IMG/VR virus record: IMGVR_UViG_3300006754_000062
Span: 1 to 35,179 of that record
Source: a virus
DNA: 35,179 bases
Direction: 5' to 3' (one strand)
In this document: piece by piece, positions 1 to 34,190 of the stretch
Layout: each line of letters opens with the position of its first letter
How positions within the stretch are numbered: the first letter of the stretch is position 1
Position numbers and translations under genes: made by a program
Notes under the pieces: model-generated
Databases searched by the model: none
Seen by the model: the letters and a program-made list of their open reading frames with translations, nothing else
Told to the model about the DNA's origin: nothing

Positions 1-1469
1 ACCCACTTTGGAGGACATGCTCCATTAGCCTGAGTGGGATTAACAGGGTCTGATCCATCTGAGTTCCAAAACACTAAATCCCACCTATTAGGAACGCCTT
101 CAGTATATTCAGTTAAAGGTGCATATAAAGGGAAATTAGGACTTAATCCTTGGGCTCCCGGGACATGAAATATCTGTGCGGTCATATCTCCATTTATAAA
201 AGCATCTACTTGTGTGTCTTGCGGCTCAGTACACATTGTTTGTGGTTGAGCTGCTAGAATAGGGTATCCAAAAAAGTTTAATGTCCTAGGACAATTAACA
301 TTAATAACTACACTAAAGCCATTATTTCCGCTTGCACCACAAGCAAGACTCTGTAGTTTCATCATAGCCTGTGTCATACTTGGATTTGATTTTGGTAATA
401 CCGCAGTATACCAACCCCTATATCCTCCCTCTAAATCAGAATAGTTAGTGTTCTTTGTTAAGGTAGACAACTGTACTTGATCTCTAGTTACCGTTATGTC
501 TGCTGTCGGGCCTGCTTGCCATATATATTCATTAGCAACCGCACTATAAACCCACGTCCATGTTGGCTGAGCTGCATGAACTTGAGGATTAGCAATAACA
601 GGTATACTAGGAGCAGGAACAAACTCACCCGGACAATCAGTGCAACCAACAGGACTATACGCATCATAATTTGGCTGATTGTTAGGGACTTGTAAAAAGT
701 CTAACGCTGTACAGGCGGGTGCTATAAAAGGACTATAATAAATACCGGTCAATGTTGGTGGCGGCCCTGCACCAAATACACCTACTCCTCCTACATATAA
801 AAACTTAGTGTCGTCTACCAACCCATATCCCGGAACTCCGAGACCCGATGTTTGATCTCCGCCATAATTAAATCCTGCACCATCAGGCGGTTGATAAGTA
901 AGATTCCTTTGATATCCTCCATCAGGTGCTCCTAAGTAGGGAAAGTTTTGAATAGGAGCAGGAGCAACATTAGGAGTGCTTCCTGAAGCAGAGAAGTTGT
1001 TAGTGGATATAGTTATGTTTCCAAACGCATCTTCATCGTCTAATACTAATCCACACCCTGCACCATATTGATTTCTAAAATACACCCTTACAATAACCGC
1101 TCCTGTAGTACCTGCGCCTTCGCCTAAATTAATAGGTATCCGATATGTTCCACTAAGGTCTGTGCCCAATGGGACAACAGGGGGGTATATAGCATTGCTT
1201 TCAATCCTAATTGCCTGACTAGAATCCACACTACTACAAGGGGTAACACAACTAGGACAGTCTAAAGGTCCTTGCCCATTATTATTAACCGCACCACTCA
1301 ATGTTCCATATTGATTAGGAGCTACTCCCTGTACTGTTAGATACCTAACAATAGCACCGTCAGCATAATATCCCTGAGGAGCTACAGTAGTTAAAGCTAA
1401 ATCAGTAAACACACAAGTCGCTAAGGACAAGTTAGTTGCGTCTATGTAATATTCGGTTAATGTAGGCAT
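1..1469 (-). CDS. Tail or host-recognition protein, 3' end outside window
   Basis: An open frame begins at the ATG at 1469 and runs off the left edge without a stop (489 codons seen). It begins MPTLTEYYIDATNLSLATC. Residues ~5-80 carry a pattern I associate with phage tail and adhesin-like proteins: YYxDxxxLxxATxVFTDxxLTT, then APxGYYADGxIVR, then a paired-Cys segment CPSCVTPC. The rest is rich in Gly, Asn, Pro and Thr with scattered Cys, as expected of an extracellular beta-rich virion protein. The gene lies 17 nt downstream of the giant tail gene and is co-directional with it, so it is probably in the same late operon. A distal tail or receptor-binding role is inferred. The beta-rich, Cys-containing virion character is visible. 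Confidence 0.75.
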   Translation of the reverse strand, partial: MPTLTEYYIDATNLSLATCVFTDLALTTVAPQGYYADGAIVRYLTVQGVAPNQYGTLSGAVNNNGQGPLDCPSCVTPCSSVDSSQAIRIESNAIYPPVVPLGTDLSGTYRIPINLGEGAGTTGAVIVRVYFRNQYGAGCGLVLDDEDAFGNITISTNNFSASGSTPNVAPAPIQNFPYLGAPDGGYQRNLTYQPPDGAGFNYGGDQTSGLGVPGYGLVDDTKFLYVGGVGVFGAGPPPTLTGIYYSPFIAPACTALDFLQVPNNQPNYDAYSPVGCTDCPGEFVPAPSIPVIANPQVHAAQPTWTWVYSAVANEYIWQAGPTADITVTRDQVQLSTLTKNTNYSDLEGGYRGWYTAVLPKSNPSMTQAMMKLQSLACGASGNNGFSVVINVNCPRTLNFFGYPILAAQPQTMCTEPQDTQVDAFINGDMTAQIFHVPGAQGLSPNFPLYAPLTEYTEGVPNRWDLVFWNSDGSDPVNPTQANGACPPKW

Positions 1470-1486
1470 AGTCTATTTTTTTAATA

Positions 1487-4400
1487 TTAAGTACATGTTC
1501 CGGGAGTGTATGGCACAGTAGGCGTTCCACAATCTGTACAACCTACCCCATCACCACAGGATTGTACGGATATCTCTACAATACTATCCACTGTCATTCC
1601 CTCCTGAGGGAATTGGTTAGGATTAAAATAAGGGTAAGTGCTTGAGCATACTGTTATACAGCTCCCTTCCTCAAGACTAGAGTAAGCCGGAAGAGTGACT
1701 ATATCTGTTGCCGGTGCAGATCCCGGAGTGATAACCTCAAAATCATAGTCATACACAGCGTTTTTAGCTTTTAACTGATAACATGTATAATTACCTGCAC
1801 CACAGCTACAGTCACAACAAACACCCTCTAGTAAAGAGGATACTCCAATCGCTCCCGGATCATAGCATAACCACTCACTTTGTCTTTCTCTTATGTCAAC
1901 AACTATATATAAATTAGGGTCAGGATTAGGAGCTATAGGAGCAGGCATAGTAAACACCCCTCTATATTTTAATGCTCCACTAAGGGCAGGGACCCATACA
2001 TTGTTAATATCATCCCAACTAAAAAAATCTACTCCCGTAATTTGAGTGCTGTTAGCCAATAATGTTACCGCATCTTGTTGGTTAGTTCTGTCGTAATCAG
2101 TATTTGTTCTTAAATACCTTAAGCTATGTTTAGTTATATCGAAAATAAAGTTGGCAGTAGTTCCGAGTGCATTACCTCCGGGACCCAAAGACTGAACATC
2201 TACTATAATCTCCACTGTATCACCGGTCATAGGAGCTCCATTAGGTGCCCCCTGAGTTAATTGTTGCCATTGAGTATTATTCCATCCTCCACCGGCATTA
2301 AACCCAACGCCTCCCATACCGTCAGGAACATAAGGGTATTGAGGATAACCCAAAGCCCCTATTGGCGTTTGATAAATACTTTCTATATTACTAATAAGAC
2401 CTACAGGCCATGCCGATTCATATTCTACAACTTGTTGATTAATATTTCCTGTTAAGGTTGAAGTTTGCCATTGCCACGTAATAATAGGTGCCTGCAAGCA
2501 TAAAGCGTCAGGCCCATTGATTGGATCATAATAAGTAGCCACATTCTCTGCAGGACAGTTTCTTTGAGAGGTATATAAAACAGTATCTATATCTATAAGT
2601 GTGGGAGTGGCACAATCTAAAGTGCTGTTAATAGTAAATACACTTGCAGTATTAGGAGTTATAGTTACTGTCGCTGTAGTAGGAATAGCAGTAAGCTTGC
2701 TCCATGTTACGGTATTTGGAGGAGGTGGGTTTGATGTCAAGAGGATAGGTAATCCACCCGGCAATACAGAACTGTTGTTCCATTCTACCTGTATATATGC
2801 TTGAGTAACGCCCCCGGCAGCGGTAGGTGTAAGGTTAAAATTCCATATTACATCTCCCACTGCCCCTTCTCCATCTTCAGGAAATTCTACATAAAACACA
2901 ATAGGAGTTAAAGTTCCCTCTGTAGTAATCTCAAGAGGAGTTCCACAAGCTATAATATCTTGCTCTGTTTCAATGTCACTTATTACCACATCACATTCTC
3001 CCGGAGTAAAAAATATAGGTCGGTCTGTTAACGATACCACATACTCATTCATATAAGGATCAAACCCTCCAAGCTTTTGAGTGTATATATTAATAGATGA
3101 CGTTAACTCTCCGTTAAAAGCATCTCTAAACCAACTCCTCATTCCGTATTCTGATAATACCTGAAGCTGTTCATTTTGTGATGAAGAGCCTCTAAGGTTT
3201 AATACTGCTCCTCGTTTTTCGTCAATGAAAAATTTATCTAACCCAAACTCTACATAGCTCTCAGGATTATTACTAATACCATAACGCTCTGTTCTAGCTA
3301 TTTGTGTTCCTAAAACTTCAGGAACAGAAGCTACTGTACCACCACCTGAAGAGTCACTTAATAAATTCTTTCCTGCTAACACATACGATATCTTATCTTC
3401 CTGTAAAACAAGAACATCGGTATCTCTACCGCTAAGTATTTGCACCTTACCAAAGCTATCTTCTAGCGACTTCCAATTAACAAGACCTAAATTAAATTCA
3501 TTAGACTTATTAATATTGGTTTCATTATTAATTATTCCACTGTATGTAATATCAGCATATCGATGTGCCCTTCTGTAGTCCTCGTTAGCAGTTGCTGTTA
3601 CACGTTGACCTAATGAGAAATACCTTCCCGATAAAGAATCATTTACTTTATAGCTTTCCACTCCATTGCCAAATGCAAAGCAGTTGAAAAAAGATAAATT
3701 AAAAACTCCGGTTGTTCCTGTAACTGCTGTACCTACCACCTGACTTACATCGTTATTACCCGCAATACCTTGGTGAGATCCTGTTGTTACATCAATAGGG
3801 TATACATCAGAACCTTCGTACCATAAATCAGGGTTCGCAGGTTTCGCCGGCGTTTCAAATACTACTATCTCTTCTTTGAAGCTAATATCAAATGCACATT
3901 CAATTTTATTATTCTCACTATTTCCCCCTCCCGCACGAACTAAAAATTGTATTTCCCCACCCGCCATTACAGCCCACTGCAAGAATATAGTACATTCATT
4001 GGTATCACAATCATACTGTGGAAGAATCCACGCATTAGCAGGATTAGCCACCGGTGCAAGTAGTGGGTCGTAGTCAATAGTAACCCCACCCCCACACGCA
4101 CTATATAGCTGTTCTCCTTCACTTACCATATAAGCATGAACATTCATATCATTAAAGAGGGTGATGATATCAGGATATGTTTGGTCTGCTATAAATCTTT
4201 TATGAAACCTCCACTCTGCCTGACCTCCTACTCCTGAGCCCCCTACCGTTCCTTTTCTAAACCACCTTAATCCAATCTTCACAGAAGTTCCCTGAGGTAT
4301 ACTCATACCATAGGGTGGAGCTACATTTATATTATTAGGACCGCTCAGACCTCTATAGTTTAACGAAGGACAAATGTTGGCAACTAATTCTCCATCAGGA

Positions 4401-12394: not shown

Positions 12395-13144
12395 CTATTC
12401 GTTCTTGCTTAAGAGTTTTTCAAGAAGTTTTAATGATTCAATTCCATCGTCACTCTGTAGATGGGCAGACACAATCATATTGACATCTTCTCCCATAGGA
12501 GCTATAAGCATTCTTTTTTTGTTAGACTTGGTGTTGAAGTGGATCGCTCCCCCTTTCTTTTTCACCAACAGTCCTTCTTCAAAAAACTGCTGAACTCTTG
12601 ATTGATGTTTTAATTCAGGATCACTTACCACATTTAGAAATTCTTCCGGATAGGTTCTAGCATAAACTAATATATCTCTCTTTAATTCTGCTGTACTCAT
12701 CTTAGCCACGTTGTGATTAAACAAAACTCTTGAAATACTTTCCACCTGATCTAAGGATAATTGTCTTGCCTCTATTAAAGCATCTACTTCTATATTGAGT
12801 TGTTCTACGTGCTCTCCCGCATCTTTTTCTGAATCTAATCTTTCAAATCTTTTACCGTATAGGGGATGGTTTTCTAAAAACTGTTGTAATACTTGATTGG
12901 TCTTGGGTACTCTTAAAAATCCATCTTCAAAAATAATAGGTTCTAATACCACGTGCCCATCTTGTTCATCAACATAAATACTTTTTTGGTTACGAGCATA
13001 ACGAAGCTCTCTGTTTACTCCTGTCTCGTCATCAAAATGTAATAAGGGAAATCTGTTTGTGTGTCTTGTTGGCAGCATATAAGATAAAGGTGCTGCGTTC
13101 CTTGTTAGTCTGTAGGTTTTATCTACGAATTTTTCTGTTTTCAT
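12395..13144 (-). CDS. Conserved virion-cluster protein after MCP (249 aa)
   Basis: A protein of 249 residues, mostly alpha-helical and charged, downstream of the major capsid gene and separated from it by a strong terminator. N-terminal half: basic start (MKTEKFVDKTYRLTRN), then a beta segment SIYVDEQDGHVVLEPIIFEDG, then the helix NQVLQQFLENHPLYGKRFE. C-terminal half: helices and a winged-helix-like stretch QQFFEEGLLVKKKGGAIHFN. Proteins of this shape beside MCP genes in large phages are often uncharacterised structural or head-completion factors. I do not recognise an exact family. A transcriptional or DNA-binding role is an alternative because of the HTH-like C-terminus. Confidence 0.65.
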   Translation of the reverse strand: MKTEKFVDKTYRLTRNAAPLSYMLPTRHTNRFPLLHFDDETGVNRELRYARNQKSIYVDEQDGHVVLEPIIFEDGFLRVPKTNQVLQQFLENHPLYGKRFERLDSEKDAGEHVEQLNIEVDALIEARQLSLDQVESISRVLFNHNVAKMSTAELKRDILVYARTYPEEFLNVVSDPELKHQSRVQQFFEEGLLVKKKGGAIHFNTKSNKKRMLIAPMGEDVNMIVSAHLQSDDGIESLKLLEKLLSKNE

Positions 13145-13172: not shown

Positions 13173-13207
13173 AAAAAAGAAAAGGATGTCTCGTTGACGA
13201 GACACCC
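13173..13207 (-). terminator. Rho-independent terminator after the major capsid gene
   Basis: Read on the minus strand, a 10-bp stem (GGGTGTCTCG with CGAGACATCC, one G·U pair) with loop TCAA is followed by TTTTCTTTTTT. It lies 18 nt past the MCP stop. It would isolate the capsid gene from the 249-residue gene, as expected for a very highly expressed protein. Its core is the same TGTCTCG-N4-CGAGACA hairpin found three more times in the window. Confidence 0.9.
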
Positions 13208-31889: not shown

Positions 31890-32204
31890 GGAACTGATGG
31901 GTTATATATAGATATGAGCAAACACATACAGAATAGAAAACGATTATTTTTTTATAGGGGGGGTTATGTTTTTTTATAATTTGGTTGCAATTTTTTGACT
32001 TTTCCAATTGTCTCGTCAACGATACATCTTGCCACCTGTTACCCCTTGCAAGATTGCCCCCGTACCCCGTACCCGTTGCACCTGTTACGCTATTACAGGC
32101 ACACAGATGGAGGATTATACCCCCGAACAAAACAAAAAGAATAAACATTCTTACACCTTTTTAATCTGTTAACTGACTGATAATGAAAAAAATATATAAT
32201 TTCT
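31890..32204. other. Intergenic region with GC-rich repeat patch
   Basis: No convincing gene. It contains a run of seven or more G at 31957-31963, an imperfect copy of the TGTCTCG hairpin (32009-32026), and a GC-rich patch (about 32026-32100) in very AT-rich DNA. The patch holds the direct repeat CACCTGTTAC (32033-32042 and 32079-32088), the inverted repeat ATCTTGC/GCAAGAT (32026-32032, 32048-32054), and GTACCCCGTACCC. It could be a structured RNA, an origin or a regulatory element. Confidence 0.5.
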
Positions 32205-32234
32205 TTTGTATATTGTCTAAAAATCGTATATTTG
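32205..32234 (+). promoter_or_regulatory. Early promoter P1 (TTTG-N18-TATATTTG)
   Basis: TTTG (32205-32208) and TATATTTG (32227-32234). The core GTCTAAnnnTCGTATATTTGTAG recurs at promoter P2 (33230-33251). It drives the 231-residue gene through a ~155 nt leader. The leader has a hairpin AAAC-(A)-AGGG-GAAA-CCCT-GTTT (32241-32261) and the TGTCTCG hairpin. Confidence 0.8.
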
Positions 32235-32335
32235 TAGGACAAACAAGGGGAAACCCTGTTTATATTTGTTCTTTGACTTACTGAAAAAATTGATTTAATT
32301 ATAGAGGGAAACCTATATAATAACAATTTCCTAAT

Positions 32336-32355
32336 TTGTCTCGTTAGCGAGACAA
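32336..32355. repeat. Perfect hairpin TTGTCTCG-TTAG-CGAGACAA
   Basis: A perfect 8-bp stem with a 4-nt loop in the leader of the 231-residue gene, 42 nt before its ATG. Same stem as at 13187, 32009 (one mismatch) and 33345, with a different loop each time. Not followed by a T-tract here, so it is not a simple terminator. Confidence 0.8.
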
Positions 32356-32396
32356 TAAATAACTAAAAAATTAACTAAAATTTAAAATTTATTATT

Positions 32397-33092
32397 ATGG
32401 AAAACTCAATTATAAAGAATCTAAATTCAAGCGAAAGAGCATTTTTTAACATTACTAAAGTTAAGCGAGTGGTAAACCTTGAGAAAATAGGACAATTAAA
32501 ACAAGATATTGAGAACAGGCAAACAAGTTTGTTCGAGTCATCTGTTGAGATGTCCAAAATCGTTAACAAGGCGTACAAATGGTTTAAAACTGCTGAAAGC
32601 AAAGAAGCTAGAAAGGAGCACGGAATCGAATTAACTTTGGCTGAATTTGGTACAAAGGGGTTCGGATATTCTCGAAGCCAATTTAATAAACTCAAAACAA
32701 TGGGGCAAAATATCGAAGATGATGCAAAAAATTGGAAAAAAGAATATAACGACAGAGTGAAAAGCGAACGAGAAAGCGGAGAAAATCCTCAATTAAGTAT
32801 TGAGGGGTTTAATTCCTTTGTTAGAAGTGAGAAGGCGACAGGGGGAAGTTCACCACTTGCACAGACTCGAAGCACAGGAAACACTAAAAACGTGTTTACC
32901 TGTACTGCTCAAGCTGATTTTATTGACGGATTGACTAGAAATTTTGCGTTAAGAATAACGCCAAACGGAGAAGTTAAGACCTCAAACAGTCAGCAGGAAT
33001 TACAAAAGGTTGTTAAATTCATTAAGGAAGCAATGAGAAGCGAAGCACAAAGAATCGCACAAGCTGAACTAATGAACGCTGAAACCGAATAG
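32397..33092 (+). CDS. Early-type protein of unknown function (231 aa)
   Basis: A protein of 231 residues. N-terminal ~150 residues are helical and charged: SERAFFNITKVKRVVNLEKI, EMSKIVNKAYKWFK, then FGYSRSQFNKLKTMGQNIED, a helix-turn-helix-like stretch. A hydrophilic linker follows (KATGGSSPLAQTRSTGNTKN). The C-terminal ~65 residues (VFTCTAQADFIDGLTRNFAL, then EAMRSEAQRIAQAEL) form a separate small domain. Base composition is higher in GC than its neighbours. It has its own promoter, a long structured leader and a strong terminator, so it is an independent unit, possibly a regulator, replication or partition-type DNA-binding protein. No family recognised. Confidence 0.75.
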   Translation: MENSIIKNLNSSERAFFNITKVKRVVNLEKIGQLKQDIENRQTSLFESSVEMSKIVNKAYKWFKTAESKEARKEHGIELTLAEFGTKGFGYSRSQFNKLKTMGQNIEDDAKNWKKEYNDRVKSERESGENPQLSIEGFNSFVRSEKATGGSSPLAQTRSTGNTKNVFTCTAQADFIDGLTRNFALRITPNGEVKTSNSQQELQKVVKFIKEAMRSEAQRIAQAELMNAETE

Positions 33093-33107: not shown

Positions 33108-33138
33108 AAAAGGGGGCTAAATAGCCCCTTTTTTTTTG
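33108..33138 (+). terminator. Rho-independent terminator
   Basis: GGGGCT-AAAT-AGCCCC (33113-33128) flanked by A-tract and a run of nine or more T, starting 16 nt after the stop of the 231-residue gene. Confidence 0.93.
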
Positions 33139-33217: not shown

Positions 33218-33249
33218 TTTGGTAGTGTCGTCTAATTGTCGTATATTTG
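33218..33249 (+). promoter_or_regulatory. Early promoter P2 (TTTG-N20-TATATTTG)
   Basis: TTTG (33218-33221) and TATATTTG (33242-33249), 20 nt apart, in a core almost the same as P1. It is followed directly by the hairpin and U-tract at 33263-33345. Confidence 0.8.
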
Positions 33250-33254
33250 TAGTA

Positions 33255-33345
33255 TAACAAATGAGGGTAGAATGTATGATTAACATAGCTATTAATAAGG
33301 GGTTATTATTAATTACATCTCATACATTTTACCTCTTTGTTTTTT
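33255..33345 (+). ncRNA. Candidate small RNA or attenuator leader
   Basis: Downstream of P2, arms 33263-33279 and 33320-33335 pair over 16 positions (one G bulge, one G·U), enclosing a second stem ATTAATAA/TTATTAAT (33291-33298, 33306-33313). The structure is followed at once by TTTGTTTTTT (33336-33345). A transcript starting near 33255 would thus end after ~90 nt as a long hairpin, or be attenuated before the micro-ORFs. No open frame of useful length lies in it. Confidence 0.55.
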
Positions 33346-33362
33346 GTCTCGTCGGCGAGACA
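33345..33362. repeat. Hairpin TGTCTCG-TCGG-CGAGACA
   Basis: A perfect 7-bp stem that directly follows the U-tract at 33336. Same stem as at 13187 and 32337. The ~87 nt between it and the micro-ORF at 33450 show no gene. Confidence 0.8.
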
Positions 33363-33449
33363 TTTAGTTTAAATTTTTGTTGGTTCGGGTTGTGTTGTTC
33401 GCTTGGGGATGGGCAATATAACTCGTACTAACTTTTAAAAGCTTAGAAT

Positions 33450-33515
33450 ATGGAATTTATAATTTTAATACTAATATGGATAACAGTAAAAATAGCAGAG
33501 CAACACGCTATATAA
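33450..33515 (+). CDS. Single-helix membrane micropeptide (21 aa)
   Basis: MEFIILILIWITVKIAEQHA followed by I and stop. One hydrophobic helix. It overlaps the next frame by 40 nt. Low certainty because of its length, but the start context (AATATGGA) matches other plus-strand genes. Confidence 0.4.
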   Translation: MEFIILILIWITVKIAEQHAI

Positions 33516-33631
33516 ATCAAGATAAAGAAGATAGAATCAATCAACTATCTTTAATTATTCACAATGCCAGAATATATGGTGTTGAGGTTAAACAAGAATG
33601 GTTAAACGAATTAAACGAATTAAGCCAATGA
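33476..33631 (+). CDS. Small charged protein (51 aa)
   Basis: MDNSKNSRATRYINQDKEDR, then INQLSLIIHNARIYGVEVKQ. Helical and hydrophilic. The stop overlaps the next ATG (ATGA at 33628), which supports it. Function unknown. Confidence 0.55.
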   Translation: MDNSKNSRATRYINQDKEDRINQLSLIIHNARIYGVEVKQEWLNELNELSQ

Positions 33632-33789
33632 TTACAGACTTAAACAAAATAGTAAGAAAAGTACACGAATATCAACATGGACTTGGAAATAAAAAGGTAT
33701 TGGAAAAGGACTTTAAGAAAGTGTACGCAAAAATAGAATCGTTAATGGACGATCTTGAAAAAATAATCTATAAAAACAAATACTTATGA
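33628..33789 (+). CDS. Small helical protein (53 aa)
   Basis: I choose the ATG at 33628 because it overlaps the preceding stop (ATGA). An in-frame ATG at 33598 would add ten residues inside the upstream gene. MITDLNKIVRKVHEYQHGLG, then a Lys/Asp/Glu helix to the end. The stop overlaps the next ATG. Function unknown. Confidence 0.6.
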   Translation: MITDLNKIVRKVHEYQHGLGNKKVLEKDFKKVYAKIESLMDDLEKIIYKNKYL

Positions 33790-34190
33790 AATACTTAACA
33801 GAATATATGGAAGCCAAGCAAGACAAACTATTCAAAAAGCATAGTGTGTTTTTTGCATTTAACGACGATCAATTTGAAGAGGGCATGAAGAAGCACTCTA
33901 TATCATCTAAAACCAAACTAACTTCATTAGGCAGTGGAATGTATTGCCCAAAGGTTGAAGCGAAAGAGTTTGTAGGAGAGCATTTAAAGGTATACGAGCA
34001 ATGTATACGGCAAGATGTGAGAGAAAATGGAAAGAAACGGATAGCACTAAGAGAGTTGGCTAACCACGAATGTTTTTGGACAGGCACGATTCATGATTGT
34101 GTGGAGAAGTTAGCAGACTATCCGATAAGTGAAAAATTAATCCTGCAAGTTTATAGAGACAACTATAAAGAGCAGACAAAACATTTTTAA
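33786..34190 (+). CDS. Conserved-type phage protein of unknown function (134 aa)
   Basis: A protein of 134 residues. It begins MKYLTEYMEAKQDKLFKKHS and VFFAFNDDQFEEGMKKH, then TSLGSGMYCPKVEAKEF and ALRELANHECFWTGTIHDCV. The FFAFxxxQFEEG start with a later ANHExFWTG segment is one I associate with small early proteins of Bacteroidetes phages. Alpha/beta, no membrane segment. It starts by ATGA overlap. Function unknown. Confidence 0.7.
   Translation: MKYLTEYMEAKQDKLFKKHSVFFAFNDDQFEEGMKKHSISSKTKLTSLGSGMYCPKVEAKEFVGEHLKVYEQCIRQDVRENGKKRIALRELANHECFWTGTIHDCVEKLADYPISEKLILQVYRDNYKEQTKHF

Follow-up and report, generated by a model that had tools for sequence, protein, structure and literature searches.

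Several described systems bear on the locus examined here. In E. coli, GraL is a terminated small RNA derived from the greA leader (PMC6829880). Cluster O mycobacteriophages carry a 17-bp palindrome, TGTTCGG-N3-CCGAACA, with 34 copies in Corndog, the function of which was unknown and for which the authors suggested a dimeric regulator (PMC4351075), and Cluster K mycobacteriophages carry start-associated inverted repeats, the consensus of which differs between subclusters (PMC3203893). Hammerheads are also known from phage intergenic regions (PMC3088659). In the portions available to us, the open-access literature on such phages held no recognized lineage-specific palindromes, nor hammerhead motifs beside them.

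We analysed a 35,179-base virus record, IMGVR_UViG_3300006754_000062 (hereafter, the window), with phage genes on its - strand, among them groEL and those for the large terminase and the portal. A stretch with a promoter and hairpins was identified between orf32397, which ends at 33092, and a set of very small genes that starts at approximately 33451. The features of this region, together with one distant copy of the palindrome discussed below, are as follows (G001 is IMGVR_UViG_3300037847_004738, the only close relative found).

32205-32234, +: second early promoter, before orf32397 (pattern match)
32338-32353, +: palindrome copy in the orf32397 leader
32397-33092, +: orf32397, candidate palindrome-reading regulator (from position and weak structural likeness)
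33112-33137, +: terminator-like hairpin and T-run closing orf32397, GGGGGCTAAATAGCCCC then TTTTTTTTT, kept in G001
33218-33249, +: early promoter of the Bacteroidetes -33/-7 form, TTTG, 20-nt spacer and TATATTTG (predicted from sequence)
33256-33341, +: H1, a long stem-loop of 86 nt at the putative transcript 5' end (fold z-score; kept in G001)
33336-33345, +: U-tract TTTGTTTTTT, possible early termination site, identical in G001
33346-33361, +: H2, GTCTCGTCGGCGAGAC, a copy of the 16-bp palindrome GTCTCG-N4-CGAGAC, with further copies in the window and G001
33379-33432, +: H3, third leader hairpin, which folds in the window and in G001
33451-33516, +: putative first micro-ORF, 21 aa, hydrophobic (translated by eye)
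33476-33631, +: first gene listed for the micro-gene operon (51 aa), its G001 protein 96% identical
13188-13203, -: palindrome copy before gene 12395-13144, with an extended stem and then a U-rich tract

Compared with the accounts cited above, the layout is GraL-like, in that a promoter is followed by a leader hairpin terminator at which some transcripts would end as a small RNA while some read through. GraL was demonstrated by Northern blots and reporters, whereas termination is inferred here, and the transcript would open with H1, a long stem-loop. The H2 family resembles the Cluster O palindromes in having perfectly matching inverted arms around a short, variable centre and many copies per genome, many of them in short intergenic gaps, some within genes, and concentrated in one genome arm. 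In contrast to the single sequence per cluster in Cluster O, the arms here vary between lineages of one phage family, fewer copies are present (3-12 perfect), one conserved gene often has a copy upstream of it, and many copies are neighboured by hammerhead-like or tRNA-like motifs. The Cluster O sequence itself is absent (GTCTCG arms flank a centre of 4 nt here), and the likeness is thus one of kind, not of family. As in Cluster K, inverted repeats with differing consensus lie upstream of early or non-structural gene starts, whereas the 13-bp start-associated sequence and the imperfect 17-bp arms of the Cluster K repeats were not seen here.

At roughly even odds (probability of about 0.5), the site is an early promoter followed by the structured leader of an accessory micro-gene operon. 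Transcription would start near 33256, which would place H1 at the very 5' end of a strongly folded, probably untranslated leader of about 195 nt, preceding an operon of very small phage genes. At H1 and the U-tract, part of the transcripts would terminate early, which would free a stable ~90-nt RNA and reduce the expression of the micro-genes; a phage regulator, of which the adjacent orf32397 product is the best candidate, would bind H2, and H3 would structure the remaining leader before the first start codon. At the level of sequence, the promoter form, the three successive hairpins, which are conserved in one relative, the interrupted reading frame and the membership of H2 in a dispersed palindrome family with lineage-specific arms are established.

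With its TTTG / TATATTTG layout, the promoter has the form that PMC7366714 quotes for the main promoter of Bacteroidetes, and it differs from the G001 stretch by only 2 substitutions in 43 columns. The window holds 6 matches to the motif, whereas 50 mononucleotide shuffles gave a mean of 1.8 and a maximum of 7, and the motif on its own is weak evidence. The case is strengthened by the recurrence, as judged by eye, of an extended form (TTTGG..TGTC..TCGTATATTTG-like) before early genes of related phages. The first-pass annotation had claimed a full early promoter here, with a hairpin no more than ~15 nt beyond it; the Bacteroidetes form was indeed present at 33218-33249, and H1 was found to begin 6 nt after it.

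The 125-nt segment containing H1 and H2 (33256-33380) folds at -32.9 kcal/mol, compared with a shuffle mean of -17.9 (z-score of -5.24), and none of 200 shuffles was as stable. H1 alone is not extreme: 5 of 1,470 A/T-rich windows (90 nt, G+C at most 0.33) were as stable, H1 itself being counted among them. Where a 73-nt double hairpin had been described, we found one long stem with an inner stem, of about 86 nt in total, and the U-tract that had also been reported was confirmed as TTTGTTTTTT at 33336-33345. H1 has a longer loop than is usual for an intrinsic terminator, and a terminator consensus scan listed H2 and not H1, since the scan permits loops of only 3-8 nt. A search of the window against Rfam release 15 at gathering thresholds gave no match; the best sub-threshold match over H1, spanning 33247-33348, was SpF43_sRNA (RF02436), with 26.4 bits against a gathering score of 70 and an E value of 0.0028 in a 401-base search. 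This family is likewise a long single stem-loop of similar length, a likeness of shape only.

Comparison with G001 gave 167 differences over 1,795 aligned columns. The longest identical run, of 109 nt (33273-33381), covers the H1 loop, its 3' arm, the U-tract, H2 and the tail; the probability of such a run is 0.0033 under a uniform placement of differences, a value to be taken as a guide only because the neighbouring genes differ in rate (4-14%). The whole 220-nt leader folded with a z-score of -5.8 in the window and -7.2 in G001, with twelve substitutions between the two. In the consensus fold of both sequences, which has an advantage in this count as it was fitted to both, all eight paired substitutions keep a standard pair, in every case via G-U, and four are unpaired; in the window's own fold, eight of ten paired substitutions keep pairing and two break a pair, and 9% of random substitution sets break as few. 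Only 3.3% of 1,500 random sets matched the stability of the consensus fold and 2.5% of 1,500 were as stable in a single fold as G001, while four random substitutions in the H1 5' arm left H1 as stable in 4.2% of 4,000 trials. Because random substitutions so rarely keep folds as stable, the leader structure is probably under selection. H3 carries six substitutions in the two-sequence fold, five of them paired and pair-keeping, with one unpaired substitution at 33409 and one at 33427. In the covariation check that had been proposed for the stem, pairing is kept in G001 via G-U; the changes in the pairs of H1 and H3 between the window and G001 are all one-sided and wobble-compatible, with no two-sided change. 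No two-sided covariation of H1 could be shown from this one relative, since no further H1 homologue was found. After H3 (33428-33450), a CUAAC sequence pairs either with the H3 5' strand or with UUAG just downstream, and the G001 changes at 33427 and 33442 strengthen the CUAAC-UUAG pairing; a switch between two folds involving CUAAC is conceivable from these pairings.

An ATG frame of 56 aa (33261-33431) crosses H1 in the window, contrary to the earlier statement that the site has no open frame. This frame is not conserved, however: the change of G to A at 33382 creates a TAG at codon 41 in G001. The stop codon breaks the sole frame through H1, and 33261-33431 is therefore probably not coding, so that this reading was dropped. 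The interval originally delimited, 33218-33362, does contain the promoter, H1, the U-tract and H2, but H3 extends the structure beyond it.

Homologues of H1 were sought widely. BLASTN of 251- and 383-nt stretches over 83 loci gave good matches to the loci of G001 and the window's own locus only, and the weaker rows (E value of 0.001 and above) were promoter stretches and chance matches. An H1 covariance model, run on 52 sources (875,303 bases) and 67 sources (664,224 bases), found only the window and L084; the remaining rows were reverse complements of these two or chance-level matches (E values of 2.7-3.7). These searches omitted duplicate loci of G001 and the window, as well as L018 and L037, each of which is near-identical to L015 or L035 by its appearance in the match tables. 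Exact patterns occurred in G001 only among viral contigs and in none of the genome contigs, scanning the viral contigs with a promoter pattern returned 13 stretches, and BLASTN against phages and plasmids gave nothing meaningful, with three weak phage rows at E values of 0.06-0.2. Among these 13 stretches, the sole comparable start-proximal stem besides that of G001 was that of L088/L091, which was not counted, its 3' side resembling a second promoter. H1 is known from the window and G001 only.

Among the readings of this site, a leader with conditional termination is favoured because its layout resembles the leader of orf32397 (32205-32397). H1 and its U-tract do lie in the interval from the promoter to the micro-genes, all on one strand. 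The attenuation of the micro-ORF operon, offered by the first-pass annotation as its second choice, is accordingly the version that gained, through the order of promoter, 5' hairpin, palindrome and ATG shared with that leader. Its first choice fared less well: the parts of an independent RNA of ~90 nt are present and the fold is kept in G001, but H2 is not specific to this RNA. A short RNA of ~90 nt is possible on the sequence features. If it formed from an independent small RNA gene, nearly all transcripts would stop at the U-tract, the RNA would act in trans and the micro-genes would use another promoter. This is a doubtful reading, for which one can cite the site's own promoter, the stable fold with its paired 5' end, the U-tract, the lack of a conserved frame, and an H1 loop and 3' arm that are unchanged in G001 while the 5' arm has changed; against it, the micro-genes have the same orientation and begin only ~105 nt downstream, where no second promoter of this form is clear, the neighbouring gene has a similar leader order, and the H1 3' arm found no pairing site elsewhere in the window within 3 mismatches and hence no target there. 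It is improbable that the hairpins serve solely to protect the 5' end of an ordinary mRNA, with no early termination; H1 would contain the first nucleotides of the transcript and the leader following the promoter at 32205 also has a start-proximal hairpin, as protection would predict, yet a ten-nt U-tract at the base of H1 is unneeded for protection and is unchanged in G001. A structure that arose by chance in A/T-rich DNA, or a short protein-coding stretch in place of an RNA element, is very unlikely, since the 56-aa frame and the other equally stable hairpins in A/T-rich phage DNA are outweighed by the codon 41 stop in G001, the failure of all 200 shuffles to fold as well and the 109-nt identical run. 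Conditional termination at H1, if true, would give both a short RNA and control of the micro-genes. On its own, H1 would be a further candidate for a structured leader or a small RNA.

The locus is of broader interest because of H2, which belongs to a palindrome set that varies in sequence across a phage family with its symmetry kept. The TGTCTCG hairpin that had been noted as part of the RNA is present at 33346-33361, but proved to be a dispersed palindrome and not an element specific to this RNA. Perfect copies of GTCTCG-N4-CGAGAC number 3 in the window and 4 in G001, against a shuffle maximum of 2, and a degenerate copy at 32010-32025 of the window (GTCTCGTCAACGATAC) is one arm position off. 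An unbiased count of 16-nt inverted repeats per locus gave a standout arm in many of these phages. Significance was assessed on 14 records, whole or in large part, with 20 dinucleotide shuffles each: the top 6-nt arm occurred in 3-12 copies in 11 of the 14 phage records, above every shuffle (maximum of 2), and G020, G022 and G023 had no standout arm over shuffles. The arms differ by lineage, with GTCTCG in the window and G001 and GTGTCT/GTGTCG, GTGTAC, GTGCAC, GTTCAC or TTCCGA elsewhere; the shorter loci also have the arms GTATC, CAGTC and TGGTC. As the arms vary while the symmetry is kept, what reads such sites becomes directly testable.

Most perfect copies in the 11 records (53 of 70) lie outside frames of at least 70 aa, a space that makes up 14.6% of bases; with cut-offs of 45 and 100 aa, the counts were 46 and 57 of 70, respectively. 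In several phages, copies in varying synonymous forms lie within the coding sequence of groEL as well (for example L035 6650, L018 6656 and L045 6656), possibly as a coincidence of the encoded protein. Given its symmetric centre, the palindrome may be a DNA site for a dimer. Against this reading stands a mild bias of the transcript-strand centre: after 16 near-identical copies were dropped, 93 sites were kept, of which 79 were intergenic, and among 39 intergenic early sites of the GTGTC class the centre was TCAA/TCAG in 18, TTGA in 6 and another sequence in 15. For copies deviating in one arm, a visual count on the transcript strand gave about 5 G-U pairs and 4 A-C pairs. The idea that H2 is simply a terminator hairpin was rejected as a general explanation, since among the window and G001 copies with flanks read a good U-tract follows only the copy at 13188.

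The candidate reader of the palindrome is orf32397, the leader of which consists, in order, of the promoter at 32205-32234, a start-proximal hairpin, the palindrome at 32338 and the ATG at 32397. The family profile matched 38 homologues in the loci, and a repeated palindrome of the same phage was found within 320 nt upstream in 20 of 39 rows, which include near-identical rows and, for L084, cover 44 nt only. The window's protein had no Pfam match. Its AlphaFold2 model (mean pLDDT of 89.5) gave no Foldseek match at an E value of 0.001 or below, and a profile search of solved structures returned chance-level rows only. VIA-align scores were weak (best Z of 4.3), with residues of about 43-111 aligning with sigma factors, an archaeal transcription factor and DNA-bound ParB. 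On account of this weak alignment with DNA-binding proteins, the product is a candidate DNA-binding regulator of the palindrome, and no more; its link with the palindrome rests on position and weak structural likeness.

In 15 relatives with printed downstream sequence, the orf32397 homologue is mostly followed directly by another gene, a homologue of which lies further along in G001 (L084 8794-9804, by eye). The promoter with its hairpins and micro-genes has the appearance of an additional early unit placed between the two. The third gene of the micro-operon (33786-34190) matches Pfam DUF7659 with an E value of 3e-27 and has distant homologues in Vibrio and Pseudoalteromonas phages.

In related phages, motifs of the form CTGATGA, stem II and CGAAA, which resemble hammerhead cores, were detected in 25 rows across the loci, a number that counts redundant loci. 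At some ten separate sites, judged by eye, such a core follows the palindrome directly, with fitting stems I and III, in the leaders of early genes. A search of L002, L037, L004, L007, L024 and L009 at Rfam gathering thresholds gave 0 matches, and the motifs thus rest on our own pattern and not on a family match. A pattern of acceptor stem and T arm gave 5 rows, and none in mononucleotide shuffles; these tRNA-like minihelices have no anticodon arm, several adjoin a palindrome, and visual inspection added a few with acceptors of six pairs. ARAGORN reported no tRNA at these minihelices, which are possibly processing sites of early mRNAs, judging from their sequence. The positions are as follows.

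L035/L037 4237 and 3220; L004 4053; L015/L018 2748-2750; L023 963, -: hammerhead-like sites beside a palindrome, first set
L033 989; L041 253; L045 2937; L055 3319; L062 4083, -: hammerhead-like sites beside a palindrome, second set
L070 2300; L035/L037 637; L053 4063; L017 3178, -: tRNA-like minihelices
L024/L027 near 3290; L045 near 3990; L070 near 3880, -: tRNA-like minihelices seen by eye

Both kinds of motif beside palindromes are leads. The link with the hammerhead-like motifs, if true, would suggest how early phage mRNAs are split into separately regulated pieces. Taken jointly, and tentatively, these observations could describe a groEL-carrying phage family with Bacteroidetes-type promoters, in which early genes would be controlled by lineage-specific 16-bp palindromes. 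These would co-evolve with a conserved helix-turn-helix-like regulator of the orf32397 family, often with its own upstream copy. In the phage studied here, the palindrome would be built into an H1-H2-H3 leader that also releases a small RNA, and in sister phages its position beside a hammerhead-like motif, which would cleave itself, or a tRNA-like minihelix would tie binding or folding to a cut site in early mRNA; this combined reading is, as a whole, unlikely to hold in every part. In one locus, L073, seven hammerhead-core matches were found within about 3 kb (821-3830, - strand).
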